The notes beneath the pieces were generated by a model. That model did no database searches. It was not told where the DNA came from and saw nothing but the letters and a program-made list of their open reading frames with translations. Positions 1,125-27,423 of a stretch of 42,399 nucleotides of DNA are shown piece by piece. Source of the stretch: Syncephalis plumigaleata (lineage: Eukaryota > Zoopagomycota > Zoopagomycetes > Zoopagales > Piptocephalidaceae); contig JAIXMF010000089.1 of the NCBI GenBank assembly GCA_025201365.1, forward strand, positions 1-42,399, written 5' to 3'. Position 1 is the stretch's first letter, and every line of letters begins with the position of its first letter. Made by a program: the position numbers and the translations under genes.

Positions 1125-1805
1125 ATAGCTCGTTACATATCGCCTTCGGGTACATAGTAATATGGAACGTACATTGATCGGTTAATGCTACGTGATTCTA
1201 CGCAAAGTGTACTAAAGGTTTATTGTTATTAACGAGTGAGTCTAGAACAGACCTCGAGGGTGTCCTATGAGGCTTTACGCTTTCATTTCATCACGACTAA
1301 CTCCTGTTCTAGAAGGCAGCTTAGCTTCACGATCTAGCATGCATATATAATACCCGGTCAAAGGGACATTCAGTCGTGTGCCGCTCTGTCTACTATTACC
1401 TGATCTACGCCGTTTAACGCCACTCTCTACATATCAACAGGCTATGAAACAACGTGTGCCATTCTCGACTACGTGCCTATATGCTCCATATATTGACTGG
1501 TGCATCCTACGTGGACCTATACCGCGTAACTAACTCGCATAATTACATGTACCTGGCGGTTAATAGTTCCTAATCATTCTTGGTTATTGGTGAATACCAC
1601 CTGCTTTACACGTTCACCCCTCTCCCTCTCTCTATTGTTTACTACTCTTTCCTTTCTCTCTTTCTTCGCCGTTCACTACTCGTATTCGTAATGCTCGCTG
1701 TACCTGTTCTTTGTTTCTCCTATTCCTTCTTCTTGTATACGCTTACCTTTGCTTAGCACACTCGTGTACTTGTACTTTCTCCTCTCTCGCTTGTTTATGT
1801 TTTAC

Positions 1806-1828
1806 TCGCGTTCGCTGTTCACAGTTCC

Positions 1829-1863
<35 letters not shown>

Positions 1864-2044
1864 GATCTAACGGTAGATTGCGTCATCATCTACGCGTTCG
1901 CTGTTCACCGCTTCTCGTTGTTGTCGTTGATCTAACGTTAGTTCGTGTCATCATCTTCGCGTTCGCTGTTCACAGTTCCTTGTTGGTGTCGTTGATCTAA
2001 CGTTAGTTCGTGTCATCATCTACGCGTTCGCTGTTCACAGTTCC

Positions 2045-2079
<35 letters not shown>

Positions 2080-2512
2080 GATCTAACGGTAGATTGCGTC
2101 ATCATCTACGCGTTCGCTGTTCACCGCTTCTCGTTGGTGTCGTTGATCTAACGTTAGTTCGTGTCATCATCTACGCGTTCGCTGTTCACAGTTCCTTGTT
2201 GGTGTCGTTGATCTAACGTTAGTTCGTGTCATCATCTACGCGTTCGCTGTTCACCGCTTCTCGTTGTTGTCGTTGATCTAACGTTAGTTCGTGTCATCAT
2301 CTACGCGTTCGCTGTTCACAGTTCCTTGTTGTTGTTGGTGTCGTTGATCTAACGGTAGATTGCGTCATCATCTACGCGTTCGCTGTTCACCGCTTCTCGT
2401 TGGTGTCGTTGATCTAACGTTAGTTCGCGTCATCATCTTCGCGTTCGCTGTTCACCGCTTCTCGTTGGTGTCGTTGATCTAACGGTAGATTGCGTCATCA
2501 TCTACGCGATCT
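1806..2512 (+). repeat. 65-bp minisatellite with (TTG)n runs, copy 1
   Basis: Tandem units of about 65 bp, each carrying TTGATCTAAC, then GTTAGTTCG or GGTAGATTGCG, then TCATCATCTACGCGTTCGC and TGTTCAC. Two unit types alternate. One carries the perfect palindrome CTAACGTTAG, the other CTAACGGTAG. Expanded TTG runs occur at about 1830-1864 and 2045-2080. Each unit has an ACGCGT hexamer. No coding role is supported. Confidence 0.9.
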
Positions 2513-2935
2513 ATTCATCCTGCCTATTGTCCTTACCTCTTTGTAGTTTGCGGTGCTTTCCTACGCACGCTCACTACGATCACTACGATCACGCGTTCAT
2601 ACTCACTTTATTCTGCTGTAATCGCCTCCCCTTCAGACTGTAGGACTTGTGCACGACAAGGCTACCGTACTGTTCCTACGGGTGCCTTACAGCTGTCATT
2701 GCGTCATGATCCACTCGCGCGTTTATTCCTTTGTACGTTAACAGTGCTCATCTGCTACTCTTTGTATTGCAAGGTAAGCTGCCGTTTGTTTATTAGATTT
2801 CTACTGTGCACTAGCTACGGGTATTGCTTGCGCGTCTAAAGCTATTCTGCATGCTGTTTTGCATACTGTGTAGGCTTCAGGTAAGTTCCGTTTGTTCACT
2901 TTTCTATGCTCATTACACTCGTATAAGCCGTTTAT

Positions 2936-3235: not shown

Positions 3236-3238
3236 CGG

Positions 3239-3900: not shown

Positions 3901-6702
3901 ACGGGCCTTCTGACTTCAATAGGTGCAATACTACCTCCAGAAGACCAGAATTGAGCGAGAAAAATGGATATACCAGAAAAATGACCTGATTCTCCAAGGG
4001 CCCCAATGGGCCATTAACTTTTATTAATAAGTTTGTTAACTTTTATTAGTAATTTTATTAACTTTTTATTAGTAATTTACTAGCATTTATTAGTCAGACA
4101 AGGGTCCGGTCCCCTCAAGAGCCGCAGCAGAGCCGCAGCAGAGCCGCAGAAGAGCCGCAGAAGAGCCCAAATAGCTATCAACTTTTATTAATAAATTCAT
4201 TAACTTTTTATTAGTAATTTTGTTAACTTTTATTAACCAGAAAATGACCTGGTCCTCCATGAGTCGCAATGATCCCCCATTGGGCTATTAACCTTTATTA
4301 ATAAACTTGTTAACTTTTGTTAACCTTTGAGTCATGAGCTTTCATTAGAAATTTGTTAACTTTTGTTAACCATTGATTAGTAGCTTTCATTAGTAAATCA
4401 CCTATCTAGTAATGAGGAGGTGATAATGAAGCTTAGTAATAAAGAATTAAGAAGACATCACTAATAAAATACTAATAAATCTATTGACATTTATTAATGC
4501 CGCTCCTTATGGTTTCCTCCTATCTTCCCCTTCCATTTTGTTAATGCTCCCATTAGTAAGTTTGTTGACTTCATTAATAGATAATGGTTATTGCATTCAT
4601 TCAATGTCATTATACTCTTCTCTTCACTAATCCCGCTCATTCCTCGCACGTTATATTCATTACTCTCTTTCACTCGCTCGCTCTACGCATTCCTTACGTG
4701 TTCTACTCATTACGCTCTCACTTTCCTCTTACATTCATCTCGTGCTCTACTCACTCTACTCATTACGCTTACAGTCTACTTATTCCCCTCTCGATCTACT
4801 CACTCCTCTTGCACGATCTACTCGTTGTTCATGCACTTTACTCTCTATACTTGTTCCTCGCGCGTTCTGGTCATTTCCCTTGCATCAGCTACTCCATCCT
4901 CGTGCGTTCTACTTGTTTCTCGCTCGTTTTACGCACTATACTTACTCCTCGCTTGATCTACTCATTCCACTTACTTTCGCTCGCGCGTTTTACTTGCTCC
5001 TCTTGCACGATCTACTCACTTCTCTCACGCGTTTTATGCATTCGCTCGCGCGCTCTTGTTACTATACTCATTCCTTTTGTACGATCTATTTATTACTCTA
5101 GCCCTTTATTCACTATACTTGTTCCTCGTGTGTTCTAGTCATTCTACTCGTTCCTCGCTCCATCTACTTATTCTTCTTACGTTCGTCATGCGTTCTATTC
5201 GTTCCACGTACTTCCTCGCTTGATCTACTCATTATATTCGTTCTTCGCGCGCTATGCTCACTACACTTATTTCTCTTGCACGATCTACTCGTTCGTCGCA
5301 CGCGTTATACTCATTCTAGTGATTACGTTTACATTCTACTTGTTCTTCGCGCGTTTTACTCACTATACTCATTACGCTCGCACATTCGTCTTACATTCCT
5401 CGCTCGATCTTGCCACTATACTCACTTTTTTCGCGTTCTACTCATCCCACTTACTTCCTCGTGCGTTCTATCAATTACTTTTACGTTCGTCGCGCGCTCT
5501 ACTCGTTCCCGTTCAACCTACTCGTTTGTTGCACGATATACTTGTTTCTTTTACTCGTTCCACCCATTACTCGTGCGCTATACTCGCTCCTCTTACTCAT
5601 TATACTCGTTCCTCATGCGCTTTACTCGCTTTACTCACTCCTTCCGCTTGCTCTACTCACTTTTTTTGCTCGATCTCGTTCGTTGCGCGCTTTACTCACA
5701 TTTCTCTCGCGTTCTACTCGCTCCTCTTGTACGATCTACTTACTAGACTCGTTTCTCGCGCGTTCTATTCTTTCGTCGTGCGCTTTACTCACATTCCTCG
5801 CGCTCCATCTACTCACTATCCTCATGTTTTACTCATTATACTCGTTCCTCGCGCGTTGTAGTCATTTCCTCTTGCGCGATCTTGTCACTATACTTATTCC
5901 TCGCACGTTGTAGTCAATATACTTACTCCTCTGGCTCGATCTACTTATTCCTCGTGCGTTCTAGTCACTATACTCCCTTCTCTCGCTTGATCTCATTCGT
6001 TGCGCACTATACTCGCTATACTCACGCTTTACTCACACCACTGATTCCTCGCTCAATCTTGTTACTATACTCACTCATCTCGTTCGAGCTACTCATTCCA
6101 CTTGCGCGTCCTAGTCCTTCCTCTTGTCACTTTACTCACTTCTCTTACTCGTTCTGGTCATTCCTCGCTTGCCCTGCTTGTTTCTCGCACGAACTTGTCA
6201 CTATACTCACTTTCTTGTGTGTTCTACTAATTACTTTTACGTTCGGCGCGCGAGCTACTCACTTCTCCTGCACTTCTATTTATTCATTGCGCGCTTTACT
6301 CCTTATTCTTATTCGTTCTACTCTTTCTACTCATTCAACTTGCATGAGCTTGCCACTATACTCCTTCCTCTCGCATTATCTACTTACTATATTCGTTTCT
6401 CGCGTGTTCTACTCACTCCTCTCGCGCGAGCTTGCCATTCCTCGTGCGCTTTACTCACTATGCTCACTCCCTGCACGTTCTAGTCCTTCCTCGCGCGTTC
6501 TACTCACTCCTCTTGTATGATCTGCTCACTATGCTCACTCCTTGCGCGTTCTGCTTGTTTATTACTTATTTCTCGCTCGATCGCGTCACTATGCTTACTC
6601 CTTGCGCGTTCTGCTTGTTTATTACTTATTTCTCGCTCGATCGTGTCACTATGCTTACTCCTTTTGCTCGATGTACTCATTCGTCGCGTTCCGCTCGTTA
6701 TA

Positions 6703-6813
6703 TTCAATATGCTTTCTACTGCGTACAAACTATTAAAAATTATCGTTCAACATATATTCTTTTATTACACGTGTATACACTCGTTACTATTAACTATTCA
6801 AGCTACTACGTCC
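6703..6813 (+). repeat. interspersed CACGTG module 1, left arm
   Basis: About 110-bp AT-rich module embedded in the C/T tract. It shares with modules 2 and 3 the order: TACTG-GTAC/ATAC, AACTA, TTCA-CATATAT, TTTTATTACACGTGTATACA, CTCGTTACTATTA, AAGCT(A/G)CTAC. The centre ACACGTGT is palindromic. Confidence 0.8.
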
Positions 6814-7870
6814 ACTATTTCTCTTGCACGCTCTACTCATTACTCGCCCGTTCTTGTCATAATACTTATTCCTCTCGCATTCTACTCACTCCTCTTGCTC
6901 GATCTCGTTCCTCTTACTCCCTATACTCATCCCTCTTACTCGCTCTATTCCTTACGCTCATTCCTCTTACTTATTCCTCGCGCTTGAGTAACTCACTATA
7001 CTCGTTCCTTTCGCGTTTTACTCTTTTCTCTCACTCGATCTTGTCATTATATTCACTCATCTTGTTCGATCTACTCGTTCGCTGCGTACTTTACTCCTTC
7101 TTCTTACTCGTTCTACTCATTACTCGTTCCTCTCGCGTTCTACTCACTCCTCTCACGCGTTCTATGCATTCACTCGCTCGCTCTAGTTACTATGCTCATT
7201 CCTCTTACACGAGCTACTCCCTATACTTGTTCCTCTTACGTTCGTCGCACGCTTTAATCACTCCTCTTACACGAGCTAATTCGTTGCGCGCTATACTCGT
7301 TTCTCGCTCAATCTACTCGCTTCTCTCGCGTTTATTCGTTCCTCTCTCTCTCTCGTTTGATCTCGTTCGTCGCGCTCTATACTCGCCATACTTACTCGTT
7401 TCTCTTGATCTACTCGCTCTTCTCGCGCTTTATTCACTCCACTGATTCCTCGCGGGCTCTTGTCATTCTACTCGTTCCTCTCGCGCGTTACTCATTACAG
7501 TCAATACGTTTTCTATTGATTACTCGTGCGCTTTACTTGCTTTACTCACTCCTCTCGCTTGATCTGGTCACTATACTCAATACGCTTGCATTTTCGTCTT
7601 ACATTCCTCGCGCGCTCTATTCATTCCTAATTACTCGTGCGTTATACTCTTTATACTTATTCCTCTCGCGTTCTACTCACTCCTCTGACTTATTTTTTTT
7701 ACGTTCCTCGCGCACTTCACCCATTCTTCTACTCCTTCGTTGCACACGGTCTACTCACTATACTCCTTACTCCTACTTTATATTCTCGGTGCTTATGTAG
7801 CTGTAGTATCCATACTTCTTTTAACACTTACCGTGGCTATAATACCGAACTTCATATACAGTAACACCTC

Positions 7871-7980
7871 TGTAAATACGCTTACTACTGCATACTAACT
7901 AACAAAGATTACCGTTCAATATATACTACTTTATTATACGTGTATACACTCGTTACTATGAATTAACCAAGCTGCTACAC
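7871..7980 (+). repeat. interspersed CACGTG-type module 2, left arm
   Basis: Same module as 1 and 3, with a T replacing the C of the core (TTATACGTGTATACACTCG). The right-arm partner reads TATACGTGTATATATTCG, two C-to-T changes within five bases. Confidence 0.8.
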
Positions 7981-8622
7981 CTTCAACGTTCACTCGCGTG
8001 CTACACTAATTCCTCTCACATTCTACTTACACTCGTCGCGCTTATCCCTCTCTGGCATTCCTTGCGCGTTCTATACATTACGCTCATTCCTCGCTGACGT
8101 TCCTCGTTGACTCTACCCGCTACACTCATTACGTTCATTCCACGCTAGCTCTACTCGATATACTCATAACACTCATTCCTCGCGCGTTTTACTCATTACG
8201 CTCGCACATTCCTCTTGCTTACTCGCGCGTTCTAGTCATTCTTCTTGTCACTTTACTCGCTCCTCTTACTCGTTGTATTCATTATCCTCCTCCTCCTCCT
8301 CTTACTCGCTATACTCACTCTTCGCTCGTTCTATTCCCTATACTCACTTCTTTCACTCGATCTCACTCCTTCGCACGAGCTAGTCATTCGTCGTGCACTA
8401 TACTCACTCTTCTCGCTCGAGCTACTTGTTCCTCTTACTTCCTTGCACGATCTACTCGTTATATTCGTCCTTCCCACGTTATACTCGCTCTACTCGTTCG
8501 TCGCACGCGTTATACTCATTCTAGTGATTACATTTACATTCTACTCGTTCTTCGTTCCTCATACTCACTACACTCACTCTTCTCACTCGAGCTATTCGTT
8601 CCTCTCGTATTCTACTCAATAC

Positions 8623-8735
8623 ATTCAATACGCTTGTTACTGTATACGAACTAATAAAGACTACCTTTCAGCATATATTATTTTATTACACGTGTATACA
8701 CTCGTTACTATTAGCCAACTAAGCTGCTACAGCAA
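8623..8735 (+). repeat. interspersed CACGTG module 3, left arm
   Basis: Same module. TTACACGTGTATACACTCG is followed by TTACTATTAGCC and AACTAAGCTGCTACAG. It is closest to module 1 at the core and to module 2 at its 3' part. Confidence 0.8.
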
Positions 8736-10130
8736 CAATTTCTCTCGCTCACTCTCGTTTCTCTTACGTTCGTTGCACGTTCTATACTTTACGCTCATTT
8801 CTCTTACTCACGACATTTGTTCCTCGCGCGTTCTAGTCACTATACTCACTTCTCTTGCACGAGCTAATCATTCCTCGCGCGTTCTGTTCATTCGCCGTGT
8901 GTTTACTTACTCCTTCGTCGCTCGATCTACTCACTATACTTGTTCCTCTCTCTCTCGACCTACTCGCTCTTCTCGCATTTTACTCACTCCACTGATTCCT
9001 CGCGGGTTCTTGTCATTCTACTCATTGCTCGTGTGTTCTACTCACTTCTTTCACTCGATCTACTCGTTCCTTGCTCGCTCTAGTTACTATACTCCTTCCT
9101 CTTGCACGATCTACTCCCTATACTCAATATACTCGTTCCTCGCACGTTCTATTCGTTGCTCATGCGCCCCACTCACTATAATCACTTCACCCGCTCGATC
9201 TACTCATTACTTGCTCCATCTCGTCGCTATACTCACTTCTCTCGCTGCTCAACTTATAGCTCGTGCGTTCTACTCGTCCCCCTCGCTCGATCTCGTTCCT
9301 TACACTCACTATACTCACTCATCTCTCTCCATCTCGTCACTATATTCACTCCTCTCGCTCGATCTACTCATAACTCATGTGCTATACTCGTTTTTTGTTC
9401 GATCTCGTTCCTCCCGTTTTACTCTTTACACGTTCGCTCAATAACCGCGTAACTCGTTACATATAGTCTTTGGGTACATAGTAATATAGAACGTATATTG
9501 ATCGGTTAATGCTACGTGATTCTACGCAAGGTGTACTAAAGGTTTATTGTTATTAACGAGTGAGTCTAGAACAGACCTCGAGGGTGTCCTATGAGGCTTG
9601 ACGCTTTCATTTCATCACGACTAACTCCTGTTCTAGAAGGCAGCTTAGCTTCACGATCTAGCATGCATATATAATACCCCGTCAAAGGGACATTCAGTCG
9701 TGTGCCGCTCTGTCTACTATTACCTGATCTACGCCGTTTAACGCCACTCTCTACATATCAACAGGCTATGAAACAACGTGTGCCATTCTCGAATACGTGC
9801 CTATATGCTCCATATATTGACTGGTGCATCCTACGTGGACCTATACCGCGTAACTAACTCGCATAATTACATGTACCTGGCGGTTAATAGTTCCTAATCA
9901 TTCTTGGTTATTGGTGAATACCACCTGCTTTACACGTTCACCCCTCTCCCTCTCTCTATTGTTTACTACTCTTTCCTTTCTCTCTTTCTTCGCCGTTCAC
10001 TACTCGTATTCGTAATGCTCGCTGTACCTGTTCTTTGTTTCTCCTATTCCTTCTTCTTGTATACGCTTACCTTTGCTTAGCACACTCGTGTACTTGTACT
10101 TTCTCCTCTCTCGCTTGTTTATGTTTTACT

Positions 10131-12508: not shown

Positions 12509-13203
12509 ACGGGCCTTCTGACTTCAATAGGTGCAATACTACCTCCAGAAGACCAGAATTGAGCGAGAAAAATGGATATACCAGAAAAATGACCTGATTC
12601 TCCAAGGGCCCCAATGGGCCATTAACTTTTATTAATAAGTTTGTTAACTTTTATTAGTAATTTTATTAACTTTTTATTAGTAATTTACTAGCATTTATTA
12701 GTCAGACAAGGGTCCGGTCCCCTCAAGAGCCGCAGCAGAGCCGCAGAAGAGCCGCAGAAGAGCCCAGATAGCTATTAACTTTTATTAATAAATCCATTAA
12801 CTTTTATTAACCATTGATTAGTAACTTTCATTAGTAAGTCAACTACCCAGTAATAAGAGGATGTTAATAAATCTAATGACTTTTACTAGTGCCTTTCTTT
12901 ATTATCCCCTCTTAACTTTCCCTTACCTTTTATTAATGCTCCCATTAGTAACTTATCCTTTTTTATTAATACCCATGACACCTCTTGATTTCCCTCGGTT
13001 TCCCCTTGCTACCCCCTGGTGTTACCATGGTCATTAGTCAAGGTTAACAAAAGTTAACAACTTTACTAATGTGGATTAATGATGGCTATTGAAGGCAAGT
13101 GACGGTCAGTGATGGATATAGGTGCTCTCGACACCCCCTGACACCCCCTGACCCCCTCTTTGAGAGCCAGCTCAAGCCAGCTTCAAGGGTCCCGGTCCCA
13201 TTT

Positions 13204-13344
13204 GAGCTCTCTATTTTTATAAATTCGAATTTCGCTCCTACAATTCAGATAAAAATATATGTTGCTCAGCCGCACATTCTGGACTATATATATTTTAATT
13301 TGATTTTTAGGAGCGAAATTCGAATTTATAAAAATAAAGAGCTC
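13204..13344. repeat. hairpin module 1 (H1)
   Basis: Ends GAGCTCTCTATTTTTATAAA and its near reverse complement. The inner stem is ATTCGAATTTCGCTCCT pairing with AGGAGCGAAATTCGAAT, and the AT-rich loop contains GCTCAGCCGCACATTCTGGA. Confidence 0.85.
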
Positions 13345-13436
13345 ACTGGGGACCGGCCGAGGACCCGGGCTCTTCACCTAAAATGACCGATTTTGACCAG
13401 TTAAGGCCAATTATACCGGCTCTTCACTGACCCCCC

Positions 13437-13581
13437 GGAGCCCTCTATTTTTATAAATTCAAATATCGCTCCTAAAATCCAAATAAAAATACGTTTGTGC
13501 TCAGCCATCAATTCTGAATCAAAATATATTCTTACTTGGATTTTAGGAGTGATATTTGAATTTATAAAAATGGAGGGCTCC
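13437..13581. repeat. hairpin module 2 (H2)
   Basis: Ends GGAGCCCTC and GAGGGCTCC. The stem is ATTCAAATATCGCTCCTAAA against its near complement, and the loop contains GCTCAGCCATCAATTCTGAA. Confidence 0.85.
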
Positions 13582-13673
13582 GGGGGGTCAGTGAAGAGCC
13601 GGTATAATTGGCCTTAACTGGTCCAAATCGGTCATTTTAGGTGAAGAGCCCGGACTCTCCCGTGACCCCCCCT

Positions 13674-13814
13674 GAGCTCTTGATTTTTATAAATTCGAAT
13701 TTCGCTCCTAAAAATCAAATTAAAATATATATAGTCCAGAATGTGCGGCTGAGCAACATATATTTTTATCTGAATTGTAGGAGCGAAATTCGAATTTATA
13801 AAAATAGAGAGCTC
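13674..13814. repeat. hairpin module 3 (H1, opposite orientation to module 1)
   Basis: Starts GAGCTCTTGATTTTTATAAA and ends in AGAGAGCTC. The loop reads TCCAGAATGTGCGGCTGAGC, the complement of the module 1 loop. Confidence 0.85.
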
Positions 13815-14138
13815 AAATGGGGCCGGGACCCTTGAAGCTGGCTTCAGCTGGCTTCAGCTGGCTCTCAAAGGGAGTACAAGGGGGTGTCAAGGGGGGTGCC
13901 AGGGAGTGTCGAGGGTGTCAAGTGCTTGTATGTGCATCATTGACCTACATTAGCTTTTATTAGTAAAATTGTTAACTTTTGTTAATTTTTATTAACTTTT
14001 GTTAGCTTTGACTTATACATTTAACACCATCTGGCACCCCTTTGACACCCCTTGACACCCCCTTGACACCCCCTTGTACTCCCTTTGAGAGCCAGCTGAA
14101 GCCAGCTGAAGCCAGCTTCAAGGGTCCCGGCCCCATTT

Positions 14139-14279
14139 GAGCTCTCTATTTTTATAAATTCGAATTTCGCTCCTACAATTCAGATAAAAATATATGTTGC
14201 TCAGCCGCACATTCTGGACTATATATATTTTAATTTGATTTTTAGAAGCGATATTTGGATTTATAAAAATAAAGAGCTC
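14139..14279. repeat. hairpin module 4 (H1)
   Basis: Same orientation as module 1. The right stem is diverged (AGAAGCGATATTTGGATTTA), so the stem has several mismatches. Confidence 0.85.
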
Positions 14280-14371
14280 ACTGGGGACCGGCCGAGAGCC
14301 CGGGCTCTTCACCTAAAATGACCGATTTTGACCAGTTAAGGCCAATTATACCGGCTCTTCACTGACCCCCC

Positions 14372-14515
14372 GGAGCCCTCTATTTATATAAATTCAAATA
14401 TCGCTCCTAAAATCCAAATAAAAATACGTTTGTGCTCAGCCATCAATTCTGAATCAAAATATATTTTTACTTGGATTTTAGGAGCGATATTTGAATTTAT
14501 AAAAATCAAGAGCTC
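14372..14515. repeat. hairpin module 5 (H2/H1 chimera at palindrome centre)
   Basis: The left end is H2 (GGAGCCCTCTATTTATATAA). The right end (ATCAAGAGCTC) is that of an H1 module of the module 3 type. The symmetry of the giant palindrome breaks inside this end, at 14506/14617. Confidence 0.85.
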
Positions 14516-14606
14516 AGGGGGGTTACGGGAGAGTCCGGGCTCTTCACCTAAAATGACTGATTTTGGCCAGTTAAGGCCAATTATACCGGCTCTTCACTGA
14601 CCCCCC

Positions 14607-14751
14607 GGAGCCCTCTATTTTTATAAATTCAAATATCGCTCCTAAAATCCAAGTAAAAATATATTTCGATTCAGAATTGATGGCTGAGCACAAACGTATT
14701 TTTATTTGGATTTTAGGAGCGATATTTGAATTTATATAAATAGAGGGCTCC
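14607..14751. repeat. hairpin module 6 (H2)
   Basis: Partner of module 5 but with ordinary H2 ends on both sides (GGAGCCCTC and GAGGGCTCC). Confidence 0.85.
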
Positions 14752-14843
14752 GGGGGGTCAGTGAAGAGCCGGTATAATTGGCCTTAACTGGTCCAAATCG
14801 GTCATTTTAGGTGAAGAGCCCGGGCTCTCGGCCGGTCCCCAGT

Positions 14844-14984
14844 GAGCTCTTTATTTTTATAAATCCAAATATCGCTTCTAAAAATCAAATTAAAATATAT
14901 ATAGTCCAGAATGTGCGGCTGAGCAACATATATTTTTATCTGAATTGTAGGAGCGAAATTCGAATTTATAAAAATAGAGAGCTC
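14844..14984. repeat. hairpin module 7 (H1)
   Basis: Mirror of module 4, with the same stem mismatches. Confidence 0.85.
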
Positions 14985-15308
14985 AAATGGGACCGGGACC
15001 CTTGAAGCTGGCTTCAGCTGGCTTCAGCTGGCTCTCAAAGGGAGTACAAGGGGGTGTCAAGGGGGTGTCAAGGGGTGTCAAAGGGGTGCCAGATGGTGTT
15101 AAATGTATAAGTCAAAGCTAACAAAAGTTAATAAAAATTAACAAAAGTTAACAATTTTACTAATAAAAGCTAATGTAGGTCAATGATGCACATACAAGCA
15201 CTTGACACCCTCGACACTCCCTGGCACCCCCCTTGACACCCCCTTGTACTCCCTTTGAGAGCCAGCTGAAGCCAGCTCAAGCCAGCTTCAAGGGTCCCGG
15301 TCCCATTT

Positions 15309-15449
15309 GAGCTCTCTATTTTTATAAATTCGAATTTCGCTCCTACAATTCAGATAAAAATATATGTTGCTCAGCCGCACATTCTGGACTATATATATTT
15401 TAATTTGATTTTTAGGAGCGAAATTCGAATTTATAAAAATAAAGAGCTC
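15309..15449. repeat. hairpin module 8 (H1)
   Basis: Mirror of module 3. One end reads AATAAAGAGCTC here against GAGCTCTTGATT at the matching end of module 3. Confidence 0.85.
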
Positions 15450-15541
15450 AGGGGGGGTCACGGGAGAGTCCGGGCTCTTCACCTAAAATGACCGATTTGG
15501 ACCAGTTAAGGCCAATTATACCGGCTCTTCACTGACCCCCC

Positions 15542-15686
15542 GGAGCCCTCCATTTTTATAAATTCAAATATCACTCCTAAAATCCAAGTAAGAATATATT
15601 TTGATTCAGAATTGATGGCTGAGCACAAACGTATTTTTATTTGGATTTTAGGAGCGATATTTGAATTTATAAAAATAGAGGGCTCC
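15542..15686. repeat. hairpin module 9 (H2)
   Basis: Mirror of module 2. Confidence 0.85.
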
Positions 15687-15778
15687 GGGGGGTCAGTGAA
15701 GAGCCGGTATAATTGGCCTTAACTGGTCAAAATCGGTCATTTTAGGTGAAGAGCCCGGGTCCTCGGCCGGTCCCCAGT

Positions 15779-15919
15779 GAGCTCTTTATTTTTATAAATT
15801 CGAATTTCGCTCCTAAAAATCAAATTAAAATATATATAGTCCAGAATGTGCGGCTGAGCAACATATATTTTTATCTGAATTGTAGGAGCGAAATTCGAAT
15901 TTATAAAAATAGAGAGCTC
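15779..15919. repeat. hairpin module 10 (H1)
   Basis: Mirror of module 1. Confidence 0.85.
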
Positions 15920-16614
15920 AAATGGGACCGGGACCCTTGAAGCTGGCTTGAGCTGGCTCTCAAAGAGGGGGTCAGGGGGTGTCAGGGGGTGTCGAGAGCA
16001 CCTATATCCATCACTGACCGTCACTTGCCTTCAATAGCCATCATTAATCCACATTAGTAAAGTTGTTAACTTTTGTTAACCTTGACTAATGACCATGGTA
16101 ACACCAGGGGGTAGCAAGGGGAAACCGAGGGAAATCAAGAGGTGTCATGGGTATTAATAAAAAAGGATAAGTTACTAATGGGAGCATTAATAAAAGGTAA
16201 GGGAAAGTTAAGAGGGGATAATAAAGAAAGGCACTAGTAAAAGTCATTAGATTTATTAACATCCTCTTATTACTGGGTAGTTGACTTACTAATGAAAGTT
16301 ACTAATCAATGGTTAATAAAAGTTAATGGATTTATTAATAAAAGTTAATAGCTATCTGGGCTCTTCTGCGGCTCTTCTGCGGCTCTGCTGCGGCTCTTGA
16401 GGGGACCGGACCCTTGTCTGACTAATAAATGCTAGTAAATTACTAATAAAAAGTTAATAAAATTACTAATAAAAGTTAACAAACTTATTAATAAAAGTTA
16501 ATGGCCCATTGGGGCCCTTGGAGAATCAGGTCATTTTTCTGGTATATCCATTTTTCTCGCTCAATTCTGGTCTTCTGGAGGTAGTATTGCACCTATTGAA
16601 GTCAGAAGGCCCGT

Positions 16615-17136
16615 CCGGACCAGAATATGCCACTGCCATTGAGAAATAACGCCATTTGAGCGAAATGAAAAGGACCGGACGACCAAATAACGCGATTTGT
16701 ATGGGAGAAATAGACTATTTGCGATTTATTGCCTGGAAATGCATCGATTGTAGCCAACTCGCATATCAATCAACTCGCTATTGCGGTCTGGACATGCGAA
16801 ATGCACTATTTGTGCATGCTTTCAAGTGCGTTATGGCAATAGCATTGGATAACACGGTATTATAGGGAAACTACCATACAAATTCAAGAATCACGGCGAT
16901 TTCCGCGGCTTTACTCGCCGTACTACTATGCAATTCTGGATTCAGTGAATAAGTAGACTTGTGCACCCTGTGATGCCCAGCAGAATGGTAGCACCCGCAT
17001 GCCGATCTGATGGATATCGGGGGAGGAAAACATGGATACTGGAAAGCACAGCCAAATCAAGAATCACGACAACTATCGACATTTTACTCGCCCTATTTGT
17101 CATTTATTTAGGTAACAGGTACATATTCTGGTCCGG
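16615..17136. mobile_element. 522-nt inverted-repeat-bounded segment, R copy 3
   Basis: Inverted partner of the segment in R copy 2, with the same 15-nt ends. Confidence 0.45.
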
Positions 17137-17259
17137 AAAAGTGAGATACGTCGAATGAGCGCACAATCAGCGAGATTGGACCACAACAACGATAGTTAAT
17201 GGGGGAAAGTAAAGCGCCATACAAATAGCACCGTGACTGCGTTTCTATTAATAGCTATA

Positions 17260-17276
17260 TAGGGTTAGGGTTAGGG
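17260..17276. repeat. interstitial telomere-type repeat, R copy 3
   Basis: Inverted partner of the block in R copy 2 (TAGGGTTAGGGTTAGGG on the plus strand). Confidence 0.85.
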
Positions 17277-18005
17277 CCGTTAATAATGGGGGATAGGTGT
17301 TAATAAATGTTAATAAATTTGTTAACTTTTTGTTAACTTTTACTAATGGGTTCATTAGTAATATTTTACTAGTTTTAAACTGGCAATTTTTTAACTGTTA
17401 ACTTTTATTAATAAATTTGTTAACATTTATTAATGGGTTCATTAGTAACTTTTTGCTAGTTTAAGCTGCTAACCCTTGTTAATTTTACTAAGGGCTATAT
17501 TAGTAATTTATTAACACTTTATTAATACCATACTAATGACCAATTAGTAGGTGTACTAATAGCTTATTGCTTTTTATTAATAAACGGCTTATACGAGTGT
17601 AATGAGCATAGAAAAGTGAACAAACGGAACTTACCTGAAGCCTACACAGTATGCAAAACAGCATGCAGAATAGCTTTAGACGCGCAAGCAATACCCGTAG
17701 CTAGTGCACAGTAGAAATCTAATAAACAAACGGCAGCTTACCTTGCAATACAAAGAGTAGCAGATGAGCACTGTTAACGTACAAAGGAATAAACGCGCGA
17801 GTGGATCATGACGCAATGACAGCTGTAAGGCACCCGTAGGAACAGTACGGTAGCCTTGTCGTGCACAAGTCCTACAGTCTGAAGGGGAGGCGATTACAGC
17901 AGAATAAAGTGAGTATGAACGCGTGATCGTAGTGATCGTAGTGAGCGTGCGTAGGAAAGCACCGCAAACTACAAAGAGGTAAGGACAATAGGCAGGATGA
18001 ATAGA

Positions 18006-18812
18006 TCGCGTAGATGATGACGCAATCTACCGTTAGATCAACGACACCAACGAGAAGCGGTGAACAGCGAACGCGAAGATGATGACGCGAACTAACGTTA
18101 GATCAACGACACCAACGAGAAGCGGTGAACAGCGAACGCGTAGATGATGACGCAATCTACCGTTAGATCAACGACACCAACAACAACAAGGAACTGTGAA
18201 CAGCGAACGCGTAGATGATGACACGAACTAACGTTAGATCAACGACAACAACGAGAAGCGGTGAACAGCGAACGCGTAGATGATGACACGAACTAACGTT
18301 AGATCAACGACACCAACAAGGAACTGTGAACAGCGAACGCGTAGATGATGACACGAACTAACGTTAGATCAACGACACCAACAAGGAACTGTGAACAGCG
18401 AACGCGTAGATGATGACGCAATCTACCGTTAGATCAACGACAACGACAAGGAACTGTGAACAGCGAACGCGTAGATGATGACACGAACTAACGTTAGATC
18501 AACGACACCAACAAGGAACTGTGAACAGCGAACGCGTAGATGATGACGCAATCTACCGTTAGATCAACAACAACAACAACAACAACAAGGAACTGTGAAC
18601 AGCGAACGCGTAGATGATGACACGAACTAACGTTAGATCAACGACACCAACAAGGAACTGTGAACAGCGAACGCGAAGATGATGACACGAACTAACGTTA
18701 GATCAACGACAACAACGAGAAGCGGTGAACAGCGAACGCGTAGATGATGACGCAATCTACCGTTAGATCAACAACAACAACAACAACAAGGAACTGTGAA
18801 CAGCGAACGCGA
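18006..18812 (-). repeat. 65-bp minisatellite, copy 3
   Basis: Inverted partner of the copy 2 array, about 180 bp shorter. Its CAA (TTG) runs are shorter, at 18567-18588 and 18769-18789. These length differences are the main departure from symmetry in the inner arms. Confidence 0.9.
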
Positions 18813-20204
18813 GTAAAACATAAACAAGCGAGAGAGGAGAAAGTACAAGTACACGAGTGTGCTAAGCAAAGGTAAGCGTATACAAGGAATAGGAGAAAGA
18901 GAAACAAAGAACAGGTACAGCGAGCATCACGAATACGAGTAGTGAACGGCGAAGAAAGAGAGAAAGGAAAGAGTAAACAATAGAGAGAGAGAGAGGGGTG
19001 AACGTGTAAAGCAGGTGGTATTCACCAATAACCAAGAATGATTAGGAACTATTAACCGCCAGGTACATGTAATTATGCGAGTTAGTTACGCGGTATAGGT
19101 CCACGTAGGATGCACCAGTCAATATATGGAGCATATAGGCACGTAGTCGAGAATGGCACACGTTGTTTCATAGCCTGTTGATATGTAGAGAGTGGCGTTA
19201 AACGGCGTAGATCAGGTAATAGTAGACAGAGCGGCACACGACTGAATGTCCCTTTGACGGGGTATTATATATGCATGCTAGATCGTGAAGCTAAGCTGCC
19301 TTCTAGAACAGGAGTTAGTCGTGATGAAATGAAAGCGTCAAGCCTCATAGGACACCCTCGAGGTCTGTTCTAGACTCACTCGTTAATAACAATAAACCTT
19401 TAGTACACCTTGCGTAGAATCACGTAGCATTAACCGATCAATATACGTTCTATATTACTATGTACCCAAAGACTATATGTAACGAGTTACGCGGTTATTG
19501 AGCGAACGTGTAAAGAGTAAAACGGGAGGAACGAGATCGAACAAAAAACGAGTATAGCACATGAGTTATGAGTAGATCGAGCGAGAGGAGTGAATATAGT
19601 GACGAGATGGAGAGAGATGAGTGAGTATAGTGAGTGTAAGGAACGAGATCGAGCGAGGGGGACGAGTAGAACGCACGAGCTATAAGTTGAGCAGCGAGAG
19701 AAGTGAGTATAGCGACGAGATGGAGCAAGTAATGAGTAGATCGAGCGGGTGAAGTGATTATAGTGAGTGGGGCGCATGAGCAACGAATAGAACGTGCGAG
19801 GAACGAGTATATTGAGTATAGGGAGTAGATCGTGCAAGAGGAAGGAGTATAGTAACTAGAGCGAGCAAGGAACGAGTAGATCGAGTGAAAGAAGTGAGTA
19901 GAACACACGAGCAATGAGTAGAATGACAAGAACCCGCGAGGAATCAGTGGAGTGAGTAAAATGCGAGAAGAGCGAGTAGGTCGAGAGAGAGAGGAACAAG
20001 TATAGTGAGTAGATCGAGCGACGAAGGAGTAAGTAAAGCACACGGCGAATGAACAGAACGCGCGAGGAATGATTAGCTCGTGCAAGAGAAGTGAGTATAG
20101 TGACTAGAACGCGCGAGGAACAAATGTCGTGAGTAAGAGAAATGAGCGTAAAGTATAGAACGTGCAACGAACGTAAGAGAAACGAGAGTGAGCGAGAGAA
20201 ATTG

Positions 20205-20317
20205 TTGCTGTAGCAGCTTAGTTGGCTAATAGTAACGAGTGTATACACGTGTAATAAAATAATATATGCTGAAAGGTAGTCTTTATTAGTTCGTATACAG
20301 TAACAAGCGTATTGAAT
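20205..20317 (-). repeat. interspersed CACGTG module 3, right arm
   Basis: Inverted partner of left-arm module 3, with the core CGAGTGTATACACGTG on the plus strand. Confidence 0.8.
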
Positions 20318-20959
20318 GTATTGAGTAGAATACGAGAGGAACGAATAGCTCGAGTGAGAAGAGTGAGTGTAGTGAGTATGAGGAACGAAGAACGAGTAGA
20401 ATGTAAATGTAATCACTAGAATGAGTATAACGCGTGCGACGAACGAGTAGAGCGAGTATAACGTGGGAAGGACGAATATAACGAGTAGATCGTGCAAGGA
20501 AGTAAGAGGAACAAGTAGCTCGAGCGAGAAGAGTGAGTATAGTGCACGACGAATGACTAGCTCGTGCGAAGGAGTGAGATCGAGTGAAAGAAGTGAGTAT
20601 AGGGAATAGAACGAGCGAAGAGTGAGTATAGCGAGTAAGAGGAGGAGGAGGAGGATAATGAATACAACGAGTAAGAGGAGCGAGTAAAGTGACAAGAAGA
20701 ATGACTAGAACGCGCGAGTAAGCAAGAGGAATGTGCGAGCGTAATGAGTAAAACGCGCGAGGAATGAGTGTTATGAGTATATCGAGTAGAGCTAGCGTGG
20801 AATGAACGTAATGAGTGTAGCGGGTAGAGTCAACGAGGAACGTCAGCGAGGAATGAGCGTAATGTATAGAACGCGCAAGGAATGCCAGAGAGGGATAAGC
20901 GCGACGAGTGTAAGTAGAATGTGAGAGGAATTAGTGTAGCACGCGAGTGAACGTTGAAG

Positions 20960-21069
20960 GTGTAGCAGCTTGGTTAATTCATAGTAACGAATATATACAC
21001 GTATAATAAAGTAGTATATATTGAACGGTAATCTTTGTTAGTTAGTATGCAGTAGTAAGCGTATTTACA
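20960..21069 (-). repeat. interspersed CACGTG-type module 2, right arm
   Basis: Inverted partner of left-arm module 2, with CGAATATATACACGTATA on the plus strand. It differs from the left arm at two adjacent sites. Confidence 0.8.
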
Positions 21070-22126
21070 GAGGTGTTACTGTATATGAAGTTCGGTATTA
21101 TAGCCACGGTAAGTGTTAAAAGAAGTATGGATACTACAGCTACATAAGCACCGAGAATATAAAGTAGGAGTAAGGAGTATAGTGAGTAGACCGTGTGCAA
21201 CGAAGGAGTAGAAGAATGGGTGAAGTGCGCGAGGAACGTAAAAAAAATAAGTCAGAGGAGTGAGTAGAACGCGAGAGGAATAAGTATAAAGAGTATAACG
21301 CACGAGTAATTAGGAATGAATAGAGCGCGCGAGGAATGTAAGACGAAAATGCAAGCGTATTGAGTATAGTGACCAGATCAAGCGAGAGGAGTGAGTAAAG
21401 CAAGTAAAGCGCACGAGTAATCAATAGAAAACGTATTGACTGTAATGAGTAACGCGCGAGAGGAACGAGTAGAATGACAAGAGCCCGCGAGGAATCAGTG
21501 GAGTGAATAAAGCGCGAGAAGAGCGAGTAGATCAAGAGAAACGAGTAAGTATGGCGAGTATAGAGCGCGACGAACGAGATCAAACGAGAGAGAGAGAGGA
21601 ACGAATAAACGCGAGAGAAGCGAGTAGATTGAGCGAGAAACGAGTATAGCGCGCAACGAATTAGCTCGTGTAAGAGGAGTGATTAAAGCGTGCGACGAAC
21701 GTAAGAGGAACAAGTATAGGGAGTAGCTCGTGTAAGAGGAATGAGCATAGTAACTAGAGCGAGCGAGTGAATGCATAGAACGCGTGAGAGGAGTGAGTAG
21801 AACGCGAGAGGAACGAGTAATGAGTAGAACGAGTAAGAAGAAGGAGTAAAGTACGCAGCGAACGAGTAGATCGAACAAGATGAGTGAATATAATGACAAG
21901 ATCGAGTGAGAGAAAAGAGTAAAACGCGAAAGGAACGAGTATAGTGAGTTACTCAAGCGCGAGGAATAAGTAAGAGGAATGAGCGTAAGGAATAGAGCGA
22001 GTAAGAGGGATGAGTATAGGGAGTAAGAGGAACGAGATCGAGCAAGAGGAGTGAGTAGAATGCGAGAGGAATAAGTATTATGACAAGAACGGGCGAGTAA
22101 TGAGTAGAGCGTGCAAGAGAAATAGT

Positions 22127-22237
22127 GGACGTAGTAGCTTGAATAGTTAATAGTAACGAGTGTATACACGTGTAATAAAAGAATATATGTTGAACGATAA
22201 TTTTTAATAGTTTGTACGCAGTAGAAAGCATATTGAA
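22127..22237 (-). repeat. interspersed CACGTG module 1, right arm
   Basis: Inverted partner of left-arm module 1, with CGAGTGTATACACGTG on the plus strand. Confidence 0.8.
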
Positions 22238-25027
22238 TATAACGAGCGGAACGCGACGAATGAGTACATCGAGCAAAAGGAGTAAGCATAGTGACACGAT
22301 CGAGCGAGAAATAAGTAATAAACAAGCAGAACGCGCAAGGAGTAAGCATAGTGACGCGATCGAGCGAGAAATAAGTAATAAACAAGCAGAACGCGCAAGG
22401 AGTGAGCATAGTGAGCAGATCATACAAGAGGAGTGAGTAGAACGCGCGAGGAAGGACTAGAACGTGCAGGAGTGAGCATAGTGAGTAAAGCGCACGAGGA
22501 ATGGCAAGCTCGCGCGAGAGGAGTGAGTAGAACACGCGAGAAACGAATATAGTAAGTAGATAATGCGAGAGGAAGGAGTATAGTGGCAAGCTCATGCAAG
22601 TTGAATGAGTAGAAAGAGTAGAACGAATAAGAATAAGGAGTAAAGCGCGCAATGAATAAATAGAAGTGCAGGAGAAGTGAGTAGCTCGCGCGCCGAACGT
22701 AAAAGTAATTAGTAGAACACACAAGAAAGTGAGTATAGTGACAAGTTCGTGCGAGAAACAAGCAGGGCAAGCGAGGAATGACCAGAACGAGTAAGAGAAG
22801 TGAGTAAAGTGACAAGAGGAAGGACTAGGACGCGCAAGTGGAATGAGTAGCTCGAACGAGATGAGTGAGTATAGTAACAAGATTGAGCGAGGAATCAGTG
22901 GTGTGAGTAAAGCGTGAGTATAGCGAGTATAGTGCGCAACGAATGAGATCAAGCGAGAGAAGGGAGTATAGTGACTAGAACGCACGAGGAATAAGTAGAT
23001 CGAGCCAGAGGAGTAAGTATATTGACTACAACGTGCGAGGAATAAGTATAGTGACAAGATCGCGCAAGAGGAAATGACTACAACGCGCGAGGAACGAGTA
23101 TAATGAGTAAAACATGAGGATAGTGAGTAGATGGAGCGCGAGGAATGTGAGTAAAGCGCACGACGAAAGAATAGAACGCGCGAGAAACGAGTCTAGTAAG
23201 TAGATCGTACAAGAGGAGCGAGTAGAACGCGAGAGAAATGTGAGTAAAGCGCGCAACGAACGAGATCGAGCAAAAAAAGTGAGTAGAGCAAGCGGAAGGA
23301 GTGAGTAAAGCGAGTAAAGCGCATGAGGAACGAGTATAATGAGTAAGAGGAGCGAGTATAGCGCACGAGTAATGGGTGGAACGAGTAAAAGAAACAAGTA
23401 TATCGTGCAACAAACGAGTAGGTTGAACGGGAACGAGTAGAGCGCGCGACGAACGTAAAAGTAATTGATAGAACGCACGAGGAAGTAAGTGGGATGAGTA
23501 GAACGCGAAAAAAGTGAGTATAGTGGCAAGATCGAGCGAGGAATGTAAGACGAATGTGCGAGCGTAATGAGTATAGTGAGTAAAACGCGCGAAGAACAAG
23601 TAGAATGTAAACGTAATCACTAGAATGAGTATAACGCGTGCGACGAACGAGTAGATCGTGCAAGAGAAATAAGTGTAGTGAGCATAGCGCGCGAAGAACG
23701 AATATAATGAGTAGATCAAGCGAGGAAGTACGTGGAACGAATAGAACGCATGACGAACGTAAGAAGAATAAGTAGATGGAGCGAGGAACGAGTAGAATGA
23801 CTAGAACACACGAGGAACAAGTATAGTGAATAAAGGGCTAGAGTAATAAATAGATCGTACAAAAGGAATGAGTATAGTAACAAGAGCGCGCGAGCGAATG
23901 CATAAAACGCGTGAGAGAAGTGAGTAGATCGTGCAAGAGGAGCAAGTAAAACGCGCGAGCGAAAGTAAGTGGAATGAGTAGATCAAGCGAGGAGTAAGTA
24001 TAGTGCGTAAAACGAGCGAGAAACAAGTAGAACGCACGAGGATGGAGTAGCTGATGCAAGGGAAATGACCAGAACGCGCGAGGAACAAGTATAGAGAGTA
24101 AAGTGCATGAACAACGAGTAGATCGTGCAAGAGGAGTGAGTAGATCGAGAGGGGAATAAGTAGACTGTAAGCGTAATGAGTAGAGTGAGTAGAGCACGAG
24201 ATGAATGTAAGAGGAAAGTGAGAGCGTAATGAGTAGAACACGTAAGGAATGCGTAGAGCGAGCGAGTGAAAGAGAGTAATGAATATAACGTGCGAGGAAT
24301 GAGCGGGATTAGTGAAGAGAAGAGTATAATGACATTGAATGAATGCAATAACCATTATCTATTAATGAAGTCAACAAACTTACTAATGGGAGCATTAACA
24401 AAATGGAAGGGGAAGATAGGAGGAAACCATAAGGAGCGGCATTAATAAATGTCAATAGATTTATTAGTATTTTATTAGTGATGTCTTCTTAATTCTTTAT
24501 TACTAAGCTTCATTATCACCTCCTCATTACTAGATAGGTGATTTACTAATGAAAGCTACTAATCAATGGTTAACAAAAGTTAACAAATTTCTAATGAAAG
24601 CTCATGACTCAAAGGTTAACAAAAGTTAACAAGTTTATTAATAAAGGTTAATAGCCCAATGGGGGATCATTGCGACTCATGGAGGACCAGGTCATTTTCT
24701 GGTTAATAAAAGTTAACAAAATTACTAATAAAAAGTTAATGAATTTATTAATAAAAGTTGATAGCTATTTGGGCTCTTCTGCGGCTCTTCTGCGGCTCTG
24801 CTGCGGCTCTTGAGGGGACCGGACCCTTGTCTGACTAATAAATGCTAGTAAATTACTAATAAAAAGTTAATAAAATTACTAATAAAAGTTAACAAACTTA
24901 TTAATAAAAGTTAATGGCCCATTGGGGCCCTTGGAGAATCAGGTCATTTTTCTGGTATATCCATTTTTCTCGCTCAATTCTGGTCTTCTGGAGGTAGTAT
25001 TGCACCTATTGAAGTCAGAAGGCCCGT

Positions 25028-25549
25028 CCGGACCAGAATATGCCACTGCCATTGAGAAATAACGCCATTTGAGCGAAATGAAAAGGACCGGACGACCAAA
25101 TAACGCGATTTGTATGGGAGAAATAGACTATTTGCGATTTATTGCCTGGAAATGCATCGATTGTAGCCAACTCGCATATCAATCAACTCGCTATTGCGGT
25201 CTGGACATGCGAAATGCACTATTTGTGCATGCTTTCAAGTGCGTTATGGCAATAGCATTGGATAACACGGTATTATAGGGAAACTACCATACAAATTCAA
25301 GAATCACGGCGATTTCCGCGGCTTTACTCGCCGTACTACTAAGCTATGCTGGGTTCAGCGAATAAGTAGACTTGTGCACTCTGTGATGCCCAGTAGAATG
25401 GTAGCACCTGCATGCCGATCTGATGGATATCGGGGGAGGAAAACATGGATACTGGAAAGCACAGCCAAATCAAGAATCACGACAACTATCGACATTTTAC
25501 TCGCCCTATTTGTCATTTATTTAGGTAACAGGTACATATTCTGGTCCGG
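25028..25549. mobile_element. 522-nt inverted-repeat-bounded segment, R copy 4
   Basis: Inverted partner of the segment in R copy 1, with the same 15-nt ends. Confidence 0.45.
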
Positions 25550-25672
25550 AAAAGTGAGATACGTCGAATGAGCGCACAATCAGCGAGATTGGACCACAAC
25601 AACGATAGTTAATGGGGGAAAGTAAAGCGCCATACAAATAGCACCGTGACTGCGTTTCTATTAATAGCTATA

Positions 25673-25689
25673 TAGGGTTAGGGTTAGGG
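25673..25689. repeat. interstitial telomere-type repeat, R copy 4
   Basis: Inverted partner of the block in R copy 1 (TAGGGTTAGGGTTAGGG on the plus strand). Confidence 0.85.
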
Positions 25690-26405
25690 CCGTTAATAAT
25701 GGGGGATAGGTGTTAATAAATGTTAATAAATTTGTTAACTTTTTGTTAACTTTTACTAATGGGTTCATTAGTAATATTTTACTAGTTTTAAACTGGCAAT
25801 TTTTTAACTGTTAACTTTTATTAATAAATTTGTTAACATTTATTAATGGGTTCATTAGTAACTTTTTGCTAGTTTAAGCTGCTAACCCTTGTTAATTTTA
25901 CTAAGGGCTATATTAGTAATTTATTAACACTTTATTAATACCATACTAATGACCAATTAGTAGGTGTACTAATAGCTTATTGCTTTTTATTAATAAACGG
26001 CTTATACGAGTGTAATGAGCATAGAAAAGTGAACAAACGGAACTTACCTGAAGCCTACACAGTATGCAAAACAGCATGCAGAATAGCTTTAGACGCGCAA
26101 GCAATACCCGTAGCTAGTGCACAGTAGAAATCTAATAAACAAACGGCAGCTTACCTTGCAATACAAAGAGTAGCAGATGAGCACTGTTAACGTACAAAGG
26201 AATAAACGCGCGAGTGGATCATGACGCAATGACAGCTGTAAGGCACCCGTAGGAACAGTACGGTAGCCTTGTCGTGCACAAGTCCTACAGTCTGAAGGGG
26301 AGGCGATTACAGCAGAATAAAGTGAGTATGAACGCGCGATCGTAGCGAGCGTGCGTAGAAAAGCACCGTAAACTACAAAGAGGTAAGGGCAACAGGCAGG
26401 ATGAA

Positions 26406-26813
26406 TAGATCGCGTAGATGATGACGCAATCTACCGTTAGATCAACGACACCAACGAGAAGCGGTGAACAGCGAACGCGTAGATGATGACACGAACTAAC
26501 GTTAGATCAACGACACCAACGAGAAGCGGTGAACAGCGAACGCGTAGATGATGACGCAATCTACCGTTAGATCAACGACACCAACGAGAAGCGGTGAACA
26601 GCGAACGCGTAGATGATGACACGAACTAACGTTAGATCAACGACACCAACGAGAAGCGGTGAACAGCGAACGCGTAGATGATGACACGAACTAACGTTAG
26701 ATCAACGACACCAACAAGGAACTGTGAACAGCGAACGCGTAGATGATGACGCGAACTAACGTTAGATCAACGACACCAACAAGGAGTGGTGAACAGTGAA
26801 CGCGAGTAAAACA
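26406..26813 (-). repeat. 65-bp minisatellite, copy 4 (short)
   Basis: Inverted partner of the copy 1 array with only about six units and no expanded TTG run. Its last unit near 26783 carries a variant (AAGGAGTGGTGAACAGTG) not seen in the other arrays. Confidence 0.9.
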
Positions 26814-27423
26814 TAAACAAGCGAGAGAGGAGAAAGTACAAGTACGCGAGTGTGCTAAGCAAAGGTAAGCGTATACAAGGAATAAGAGAAAGAGAAATAA
26901 AGAACAGGTACAGCGAGCATCACGAATACGAGCAGTGAACGGCGAAGAAAGAGAGAAAGGAAAGAGTAAACAATAGAGAGAGAGAGAGGGGTGAACGTGT
27001 AAAGCAGGTGGTATTCACCAATAACCAAGAATGATTAGGAACTATTAACCGCCAGGTACATGTAATTATGCGAGTTAGTTACGCGGTATAGGTCCACGTA
27101 GGATGCACCAGTCAATATATGGAGCATATAGGCACGTAGTCGAGAATGGCACACGTTGTTTCATAGCCTGTTGATATGTAGAGAGTGGCGTTAAACGGCG
27201 TAGATCAGGTAATAGTAGACAGAGCGGCACACGACTGAATGTCCCTTTGACGGGGTATTATATATGCATGCTAGATCGTGAAGCTAAGCTGCCTTCTAGA
27301 ACAGGAGTTAGTCGTGATGAAATGAAAGCGTCAAGCCTCATAGGCCACGCTCGAGGTCTGTTCTAGACTCACTCGTTAATAACAATAAACCTTTAGTACA
27401 CCTTGCGTAGAATCACGTAGCAT

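Follow-up and report, generated by a model that had tools for sequence, protein, structure and literature searches.

Architecture and gene content of the palindrome

What kind of locus is a palindrome of some 26 kb that adjoins gene-bearing DNA, and how do its two arms stay alike? The window analysed here is the entire 42,399-base contig C372 of a 32.6-Mb genome in 383 contigs, and a first-pass annotation had described in it a nested palindrome of ~26 kb with the order R-tract-R-core-R-tract-R, which exact 25-mer matching recovered at the positions it had given. From 1173 to 27423, the order is R5-array-R, tract, R5-array-R, core and then the mirror image, where R5 is ~0.63 kb, R is ~1.57 kb and the array consists of 65-bp minisatellite repeats containing TTG runs. 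The outer left unit, L1 (1173..4156, + strand), is made up of R5 (1173-1806), the array with its TTG runs (1807-2591) and R (2592-4156), and is followed by the left tract (4157..9496, +), which carries no Pfam domain, and by the inner left unit, L2 (9497..12766, +), with R5, the 65-bp array and R at 11200-12766. Beyond the core (12767..16358), where ten hairpins with 60-120-bp arms form a palindromic array, lie the inner right unit, R2 (16359..19442, −), a mirror of L2 with an R identical to that of L2, the right tract (19443..24782, −), a mirror of the left one, and the outer right unit, R1 (24783..27423, −), a mirror of L1 in which R is 99.9% and R5 97.2% identical.

Inverted diagonals of exact 25-mers pair 10836-14506 with 14617-18287, 4129-9948 with 18991-24810 and 2592-4138 with 24790-26336, with outer inverted copies at 1207-1624 and 26984-27401. 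Between the exact arms lies the 110-nt spacer described earlier (14507..14616), which shrinks to a 56-nt gap at 14534-14589 when mismatches are allowed. The two R units in each arm are direct repeats, as had also been proposed, at offsets of 8608 (left) and 8413 (right), and the strand asymmetry ascribed to the tract was confirmed by a pyrimidine content of 70% in the left and 30% in the right copy versus 51% in the right flank; it is thus the strand running toward the core that is 70% pyrimidine, with a weak periodicity near 29 bases. Over 5.34 kb, the left and right tracts are separated by 2 mismatches and 2 one-base gaps, a near-identity far beyond chance.

The same annotation had held that nothing inside the palindrome encodes a recognisable protein and that the adjoining DNA is rich in genes, and domain searches agreed on both counts. 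No Pfam family (E ≤ 0.001) was found in 20 of the 28 internal ORFs of at least 80 aa, the 20 scanned being 14/14 of the left half and 6/14 of the right half, and a protein-coding element was ruled out on this result. The long ORFs inside the tract probably arise because its pyrimidine-rich strand has few stop codons. The right flank (27424..42399) is gene-bearing, and three of the five flank ORFs scanned matched Pfam families, namely UDPGT (27936-28814, −), an SHMT exon (37830-38141, +) and TFIIB (39868-40902, −), with none in the other two. An RNA or tRNA locus was likewise ruled out, the window containing no Rfam family at gathering score and no tRNA gene. ARAGORN also reported no tRNA genes on the stretches examined of C372, C1 (1.51-1.56 Mb), C223, C2, C13, C236 and C283. 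One tRNA-Met was seen at C79:234863-234937, outside the R unit there.

Recurrence of the structure and its two haplotypes

The genome was searched with R (best 40 of 77 candidates), the tract (best 40 of 54) and the core (best 40 of 51), and 246 kb of sequence was read. The same order and relative orientation were found at C1:1526.1-1547.7 kb, C223:353.5-378.9 kb and C2:55.9-95.3 kb, so that both inverted arms are present on C372, C2, C1 and C223, the outer right unit of C1 lacking the array and R5. On C13 (from the contig start, with a core at about 15.5-18.5 kb), C236 and C283, partial structures show the same arrangement over the parts read. Among the best 40 of 51 candidates, long core matches fall on at least seven contigs (C372, C236, C223, C2, C13, C283 and C1), and never do two separate cores lie on one contig. 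The core of C1, at 1.537 Mb, lies about midway along its 3.05-Mb contig, and that of C223 is internal to 1.95 Mb; long ORFs, called by length alone, lie on both sides of these two cores and on the left side of C2, whose right side is allelic to the gene flank of the window. Allele-level likeness of C236 to C223 and of C283 to C1 suggests about four core-bearing loci, a tentative count obtained by pairing these contigs. The 2.35-Mb contig C112 has no core or R match among those listed (best 40 of 51 and of 77, respectively), so not every large contig shows a core.

Identity between loci is 92.7-97.1% for R, a divergence of 3-7%, and cores diverge by up to about 23%. R units are dispersed, with long matches on at least 16 contigs among the best 40 of 77 candidates, and they occur without a core on, for example, C79, C362 and C1 at 2.53 Mb, so that C1 has a solo R in addition to its core locus; R is therefore not exclusive to the putative centromeres. 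Some solo copies (C362 and C1:2.53 Mb) are truncated at the R5/array side. On C287, of which 5.0 of 13.4 kb was read, a 2.3-kb tandem unit contains part of R, and the core matches listed there are all short. Relatives of the tract lie about 1-6 kb from the telomeric end of C316, a contig of 10,194 bases with terminal TTAGGG repeats preceded by TTAGGC variants, and also near several contig ends among the best 40 of 54 candidates. As these tract matches near contig ends occur on both strands, the tract skew was no longer read as a sign of replication polarity. A subtelomere was ruled out for the core loci of C1, C223 and C2 by the long ORFs on both sides, the tract family nevertheless being common to telomere-bearing C316.

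Positions 27424-42000 of the window align with C2:95262-109832 at 98.86% identity with 166 mismatches, the flank as a whole being allelic to C2:95262-110000, and the left flank (1..1172, +) shows 0 mismatches and a single 1-base gap to C2:54708-55826 over the 1,119 bases that were compared. Parts of this left flank reappear at C1:2523.6-2526.5 kb and at C79:239.7-240.0 kb, which makes the flank a dispersed repeat in its own right. Judged from these alignments, C372 is the second haplotype (allele) of C2, with the structure at the same site in both. The two homologues share both flanks of a gene-free region at a fixed site, into which retrotransposons have been inserted in C2, as they have in the C13 structure. 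The C2 copy, at ~39.4 kb, is larger than the 26 kb of C372 because a right-arm unit of ~11.2 kb is tandemly repeated, each copy holding a 4.6-kb insert; the tandem copies are 99.85% identical over the 12.7 kb compared. A 1333-codon ORF in the first C2 insert matched Ty1/copia-type reverse transcriptase and integrase families over the 1010 residues searched, and the 5.1-kb insert that interrupts an R unit on C13 is of the Ty3/gypsy type, as matches to RVT_1, RNase H and integrase families were found in the 953 residues searched out of 1187.

Homogenisation of the arms

Persistence of so large a palindrome had been taken to imply either a short-term origin or an active homogenising mechanism. 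The former does not fit a structure common to both haplotypes and to further loci whose R units and cores have diverged as described above, and the latter is favoured by the likeness of tract arms in cis, with C223 as an exception. On C1, the two tract arms show 0 mismatches over 4.4 kb and six gaps of 1-2 bases, compared with 2 mismatches in 5.3 kb on C372, 10 in 3.0 kb on C2 (where an insert in each copy of the right arm restricts the comparison to that length) and 27 in 3.8 kb on C223. Between alleles, the C372 arms differ from the C2 left tract by 42-43 mismatches in about 5.2 kb, C1 differs from C283 by 23, and the right tract of C236 differs from those of C223 by 31 (right) and 7 (left). 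Tract arms are thus closer in cis than between alleles in three of the four haplotypes measured. The left tract of C223 is the exception, being closer to the right tract of C236 (7 mismatches) than to its own right arm (27), and a haplotype exchange or a phase switch is therefore possible there.

Similar behaviour was seen for R, where, among 28 copies compared, mirror partners are closest or nearly so, at 100% for L2/R2 and 99.9% for L1/R1 of C372, versus 99.4-99.5% for other pairings within that contig, and at 99.9, 99.7 and 99.8% for L2/R2 of C1, C223 and C236, respectively. R copies of C372 and C2 are 95.9-97.0% alike, and R1 of C223 clusters with C236 copies. The repeats are homogenised between arms and between chromosomes, with identities in cis of 99.28-100% for tract arms and up to 100% for mirror R copies, the R5 of C372 and the C223 locus being exceptions. 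In C372, R5 copies are closer within an arm (99.4 and 99.0%) than across arms (98.6 and 97.2%), and a clean conversion between mirror copies only is too simple an account, since R pairs across arms and R5 within an arm. Polishing with mis-mapped reads could exaggerate the identity of the arms; it did not erase all differences between them, because array lengths and R5 differ between arms and the core halves are about 7-11% apart at C1, C2 and C13.

The hairpin core

The hairpin-rich core described by the first-pass annotation proved to be an array of ten hairpins, centred within 13203-13345, 13377-13641, 13673-13815, 14138-14280, 14365-14523, 14547-14811, 14843-14985, 15308-15450, 15482-15746 and 15778-15920. 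The same kind of array, with arms of at most 120 bp and loops of 3-26 nt as the search setting, gave 10 hairpins on C2, 5 on C1, 8 on C223, 9 on C236, 9 on C13 and 2 on the partial C283, for a total of 53 across seven cores, with arms of 50-120 bp and 83-96% pairing. With identical settings, none were found in 42.5 kb of compared DNA (flanks of 14.9 and 16.0 kb and an 11.6-kb left arm), and hairpin arrays are confined to the cores in the DNA compared. One 165-nt unit folded as single-stranded DNA reached −52.3 kcal/mol (z −14.4), with 0 of 200 shuffles as good.

The hairpin units are of two sequence types, and, when one unit per type was compared, 18 stem pairs differed, of which 8 keep Watson-Crick pairing by two-sided change. 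Co-variation was assessed over the 37 distinct rows among the 53 units, with the structure taken from one row and with shuffles that ignore relatedness; on these terms, pairing holds in 2279 of 2552 cells, compared with a mean of 2159 and a maximum of 2183 in the shuffles, and double changes occupy 107 cells, compared with a mean of 56 and a maximum of 70. At 11, the count of stem pairs showing at least one double change does not exceed that of the shuffles (mean 11.9). By these counts, the symmetry of the core is kept while its sequence changes, which is compatible with selection or with arm-to-arm conversion.

Centromere and RNAi machinery genes

A CENP-A gene is present at C57:421.8-422.3 kb in three exon fragments, and among solved structures it matches S. 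pombe Cnp1 chains best, at 131.5 and 131.2 bits, versus at most 116.1 bits for canonical H3 chains. There are two kinds of canonical H3 gene, both of them represented on two contigs; the gene that was searched has its best matches among ordinary H3 chains. Argonaute (Piwi) has two apparent loci, RdRP also has two, accompanied by probable allelic copies, and Pre-SET gave one match with a stop inside. Exon-wise genome searches that lacked a usable positive control yielded no match to CENP-C_C, Chromo_shadow or IFT46. Chitin synthase gave 24 matches, counted exon by exon, and these, the RdRP matches and the lack of an IFT46 match at most hint at a non-flagellate fungus.

Centromere reading and alternatives

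Taking recurrence, allelic position, gene emptiness and architecture together, the structure is best read as a regional centromere, and we consider it probable that the palindrome is one haplotype's copy of a fungal centromere of the inverted-repeat kind. The hairpin-array core, at about 3-3.6 kb, is where CENP-A and the kinetochore would most likely sit, perhaps with one such core per chromosome. The mirror R units and the pyrimidine/purine tracts would then serve as pericentromeric repeats that confine the core and probably feed an RNAi-dependent heterochromatin, with siRNA and heterochromatin predicted on the arms. The arms may be kept alike by gene conversion or by inversion between mirror copies. 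Several observations speak against the centromere reading: C112 has no listed core or R match, R is found away from cores, the exon-wise searches gave neither CENP-C_C nor Chromo_shadow, the outer right unit of C1 is incomplete, the left tract of C223 is nearer to C236 than to its own right arm, and tRNA genes are missing from the borders. More speculatively, and with the odds against it, the hairpin array might itself be the centromere signal, a cruciform-forming, shape-encoded core that directs CENP-A loading within cis-homogenised arms; that its symmetry is, in addition, maintained by compensatory change while sequence drifts between chromosomes is a conjecture of the same doubtful rank, taken jointly with the whole proposal. 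If true, such a core would offer a natural system in which DNA shape, not sequence, specifies the centromere.

A heterochromatic island of the silent mating-type or subtelomere type, palindromic and homogenised without a kinetochore, could account for tract relatives near the telomere of C316 and near several contig ends, and for solo R and tract units inside contigs. This appears improbable, however, as the full two-arm structure with its core is found once per contig on at least seven contigs and at internal sites, while the solo units have no core. The dispersal of R over at least 16 contigs and the truncation of some solo copies at the R5/array side would also suit a composite element, mobile now or in the past, that had spread to several loci with the palindrome as its own body. 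Such an element is harder still to reconcile with a structure that sits at the same site in both haplotypes, with one full copy per contig and no sign of coding capacity in the 20 ORFs scanned out of 28, and the retrotransposons that were found lie within the structure and are not its makers.

An assembly artefact, either a fold-back chimera or a collapse, would explain near-perfect arms and why the small contigs C372, C236 and C283 break off within or close to repeats, but we regard it as very improbable indeed. The flanks differ on the two sides, the array is not of equal length in the two arms, R5 diverges between arms by up to 2.8% (C372) and core halves by about 7-11% at C1, C2 and C13, and independent copies exist on contigs of Mb size as well as in the second haplotype; this recurrence makes a fold-back private to C372 unlikely.

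Comparison with known centromeres

As a regional centromere, the structure would best be placed as an inverted-repeat centromere of the S. pombe/C. tropicalis type with a novel hairpin core. It resembles S. pombe in having a core within nested inverted repeats in a gene-poor region, in a genome with a Cnp1-like CENP-A, Argonaute, RdRP and Pre-SET. In S. pombe, the borders of centromere domains carry tRNA genes and subtelomeres hold dg/dh-like DNA. Tract relatives near a telomere recall the latter, whereas no tRNA genes were found by ARAGORN at the borders here, on stretches of seven contigs. The structure is also shorter, at about 22-39 kb compared with 40-110 kb for S. pombe centromeres (PMC4741521), and its core is a repetitive hairpin array common to several loci.

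In C. tropicalis, C. sojae, C. viswanathii and C. parapsilosis, the core is likewise flanked by inverted repeats (PMC4741521, PMC7292649), and the homogenised-inverted-repeat (HIR) type of C. tropicalis shares with the present loci repeats that are homogenised within and between chromosomes and related cores on different chromosomes (PMC4741521, PMC7292649). C. tropicalis is described there as having repeats of about 3-4 kb and a non-repetitive core of ~3 kb, without outer repeats and without full RNAi (PMC4741521, PMC7292649), whereas here each arm holds two R units and a 3-5-kb tract, RNAi genes are present and the core is a repetitive hairpin array. As this core consists of dyad DNA, the structure does not belong to the C. 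tropicalis subtype in the strict sense and is better called a variant. Recruitment of CENP-A in C. tropicalis depends on the inverted orientation of the repeats as well as on their sequence (PMC4741521).

An inverted repeat surrounding a mid region is also found in Komagataella phaffii, as a 2-kb repeat and a 1-kb mid region, reportedly with no conservation between chromosomes (PMC7263194). The mosaic centromeres of Mucor circinelloides have retroelements near the kinetochore region and are reported to lack CENP-A (PMC7385547); two retrotransposons lie inside the repeats here, but a CENP-A gene is present. In the accessible portions of the open-access literature searched, we met no description of a hairpin-array core or of inverted-repeat centromeres outside the ascomycete yeasts. 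The combination of an inverted-repeat design, RNAi genes and a Cnp1-like CENP-A bears on whether such centromeres are ancient or repeatedly invented, and the presence of two haplotypes allows a direct measurement of arm homogenisation. Dyad symmetry or cruciforms have been proposed to mark centromeres (Kasinathan and Henikoff 2018, via PMC7263194), and the hairpin core makes this proposal of dyad or non-B DNA marking directly testable.

Variation and insertions within the repeat structure

On contig C223, which carries a further copy of the structure, the left inner unit has a 65-bp minisatellite array of 3.7 kb (360596-364291), compared to an array of only 1.05 kb (370482-371531) in its mirror, and this inequality between mirror units indicates that the arrays escape the proposed homogenisation between arms. 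Retroelements were also present inside the repeats. On C2, the other haplotype of the window locus, both tandem right-arm copies contain, within the tract, a Ty1/copia-like element (76680-81288 and 87869-92477) that carries a long open frame, and on C13 a Ty3/gypsy-like element (9104-14161), the final portion of which reads like a putative chromodomain, is inserted in an R unit.

R units outside the full structure

A 2.3-kb unit containing part of R was observed at C287:1-5000, with two copies 99.8% identical over the 2.0 kb compared. Among the matches listed in a genome search with R, three copies on this contig run one way and two the other, while those listed in a search with the core, the central hairpin array, were short ones only. 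The C287 repeats are another palindromic arrangement. Solo R units, two with a short stretch of tract (C79:235797-240000 and C1:2528335-2531134) and one read only up to R (C362:363030-365000), were also found, with the R5/array side partly missing in two of the three (C362 and C1). These units may be remnants of centromeres that have decayed, silencing elements dispersed in the genome, or mobile copies.

Other repeats

At the telomere end of C316 (9800-10194), a block of TTAGGC repeats lies immediately internal to the terminal TTAGGG repeats. A dispersed element of ~90 bp, a relative of the end of the core (window 16169-16262) and possibly a small mobile element, is scattered across many contigs; the search with the core placed copies in the window at 4473-4562 and 24377-24466 and, among the matches listed, on C318, C373, C335, C362, C57, C35, C113, and others.
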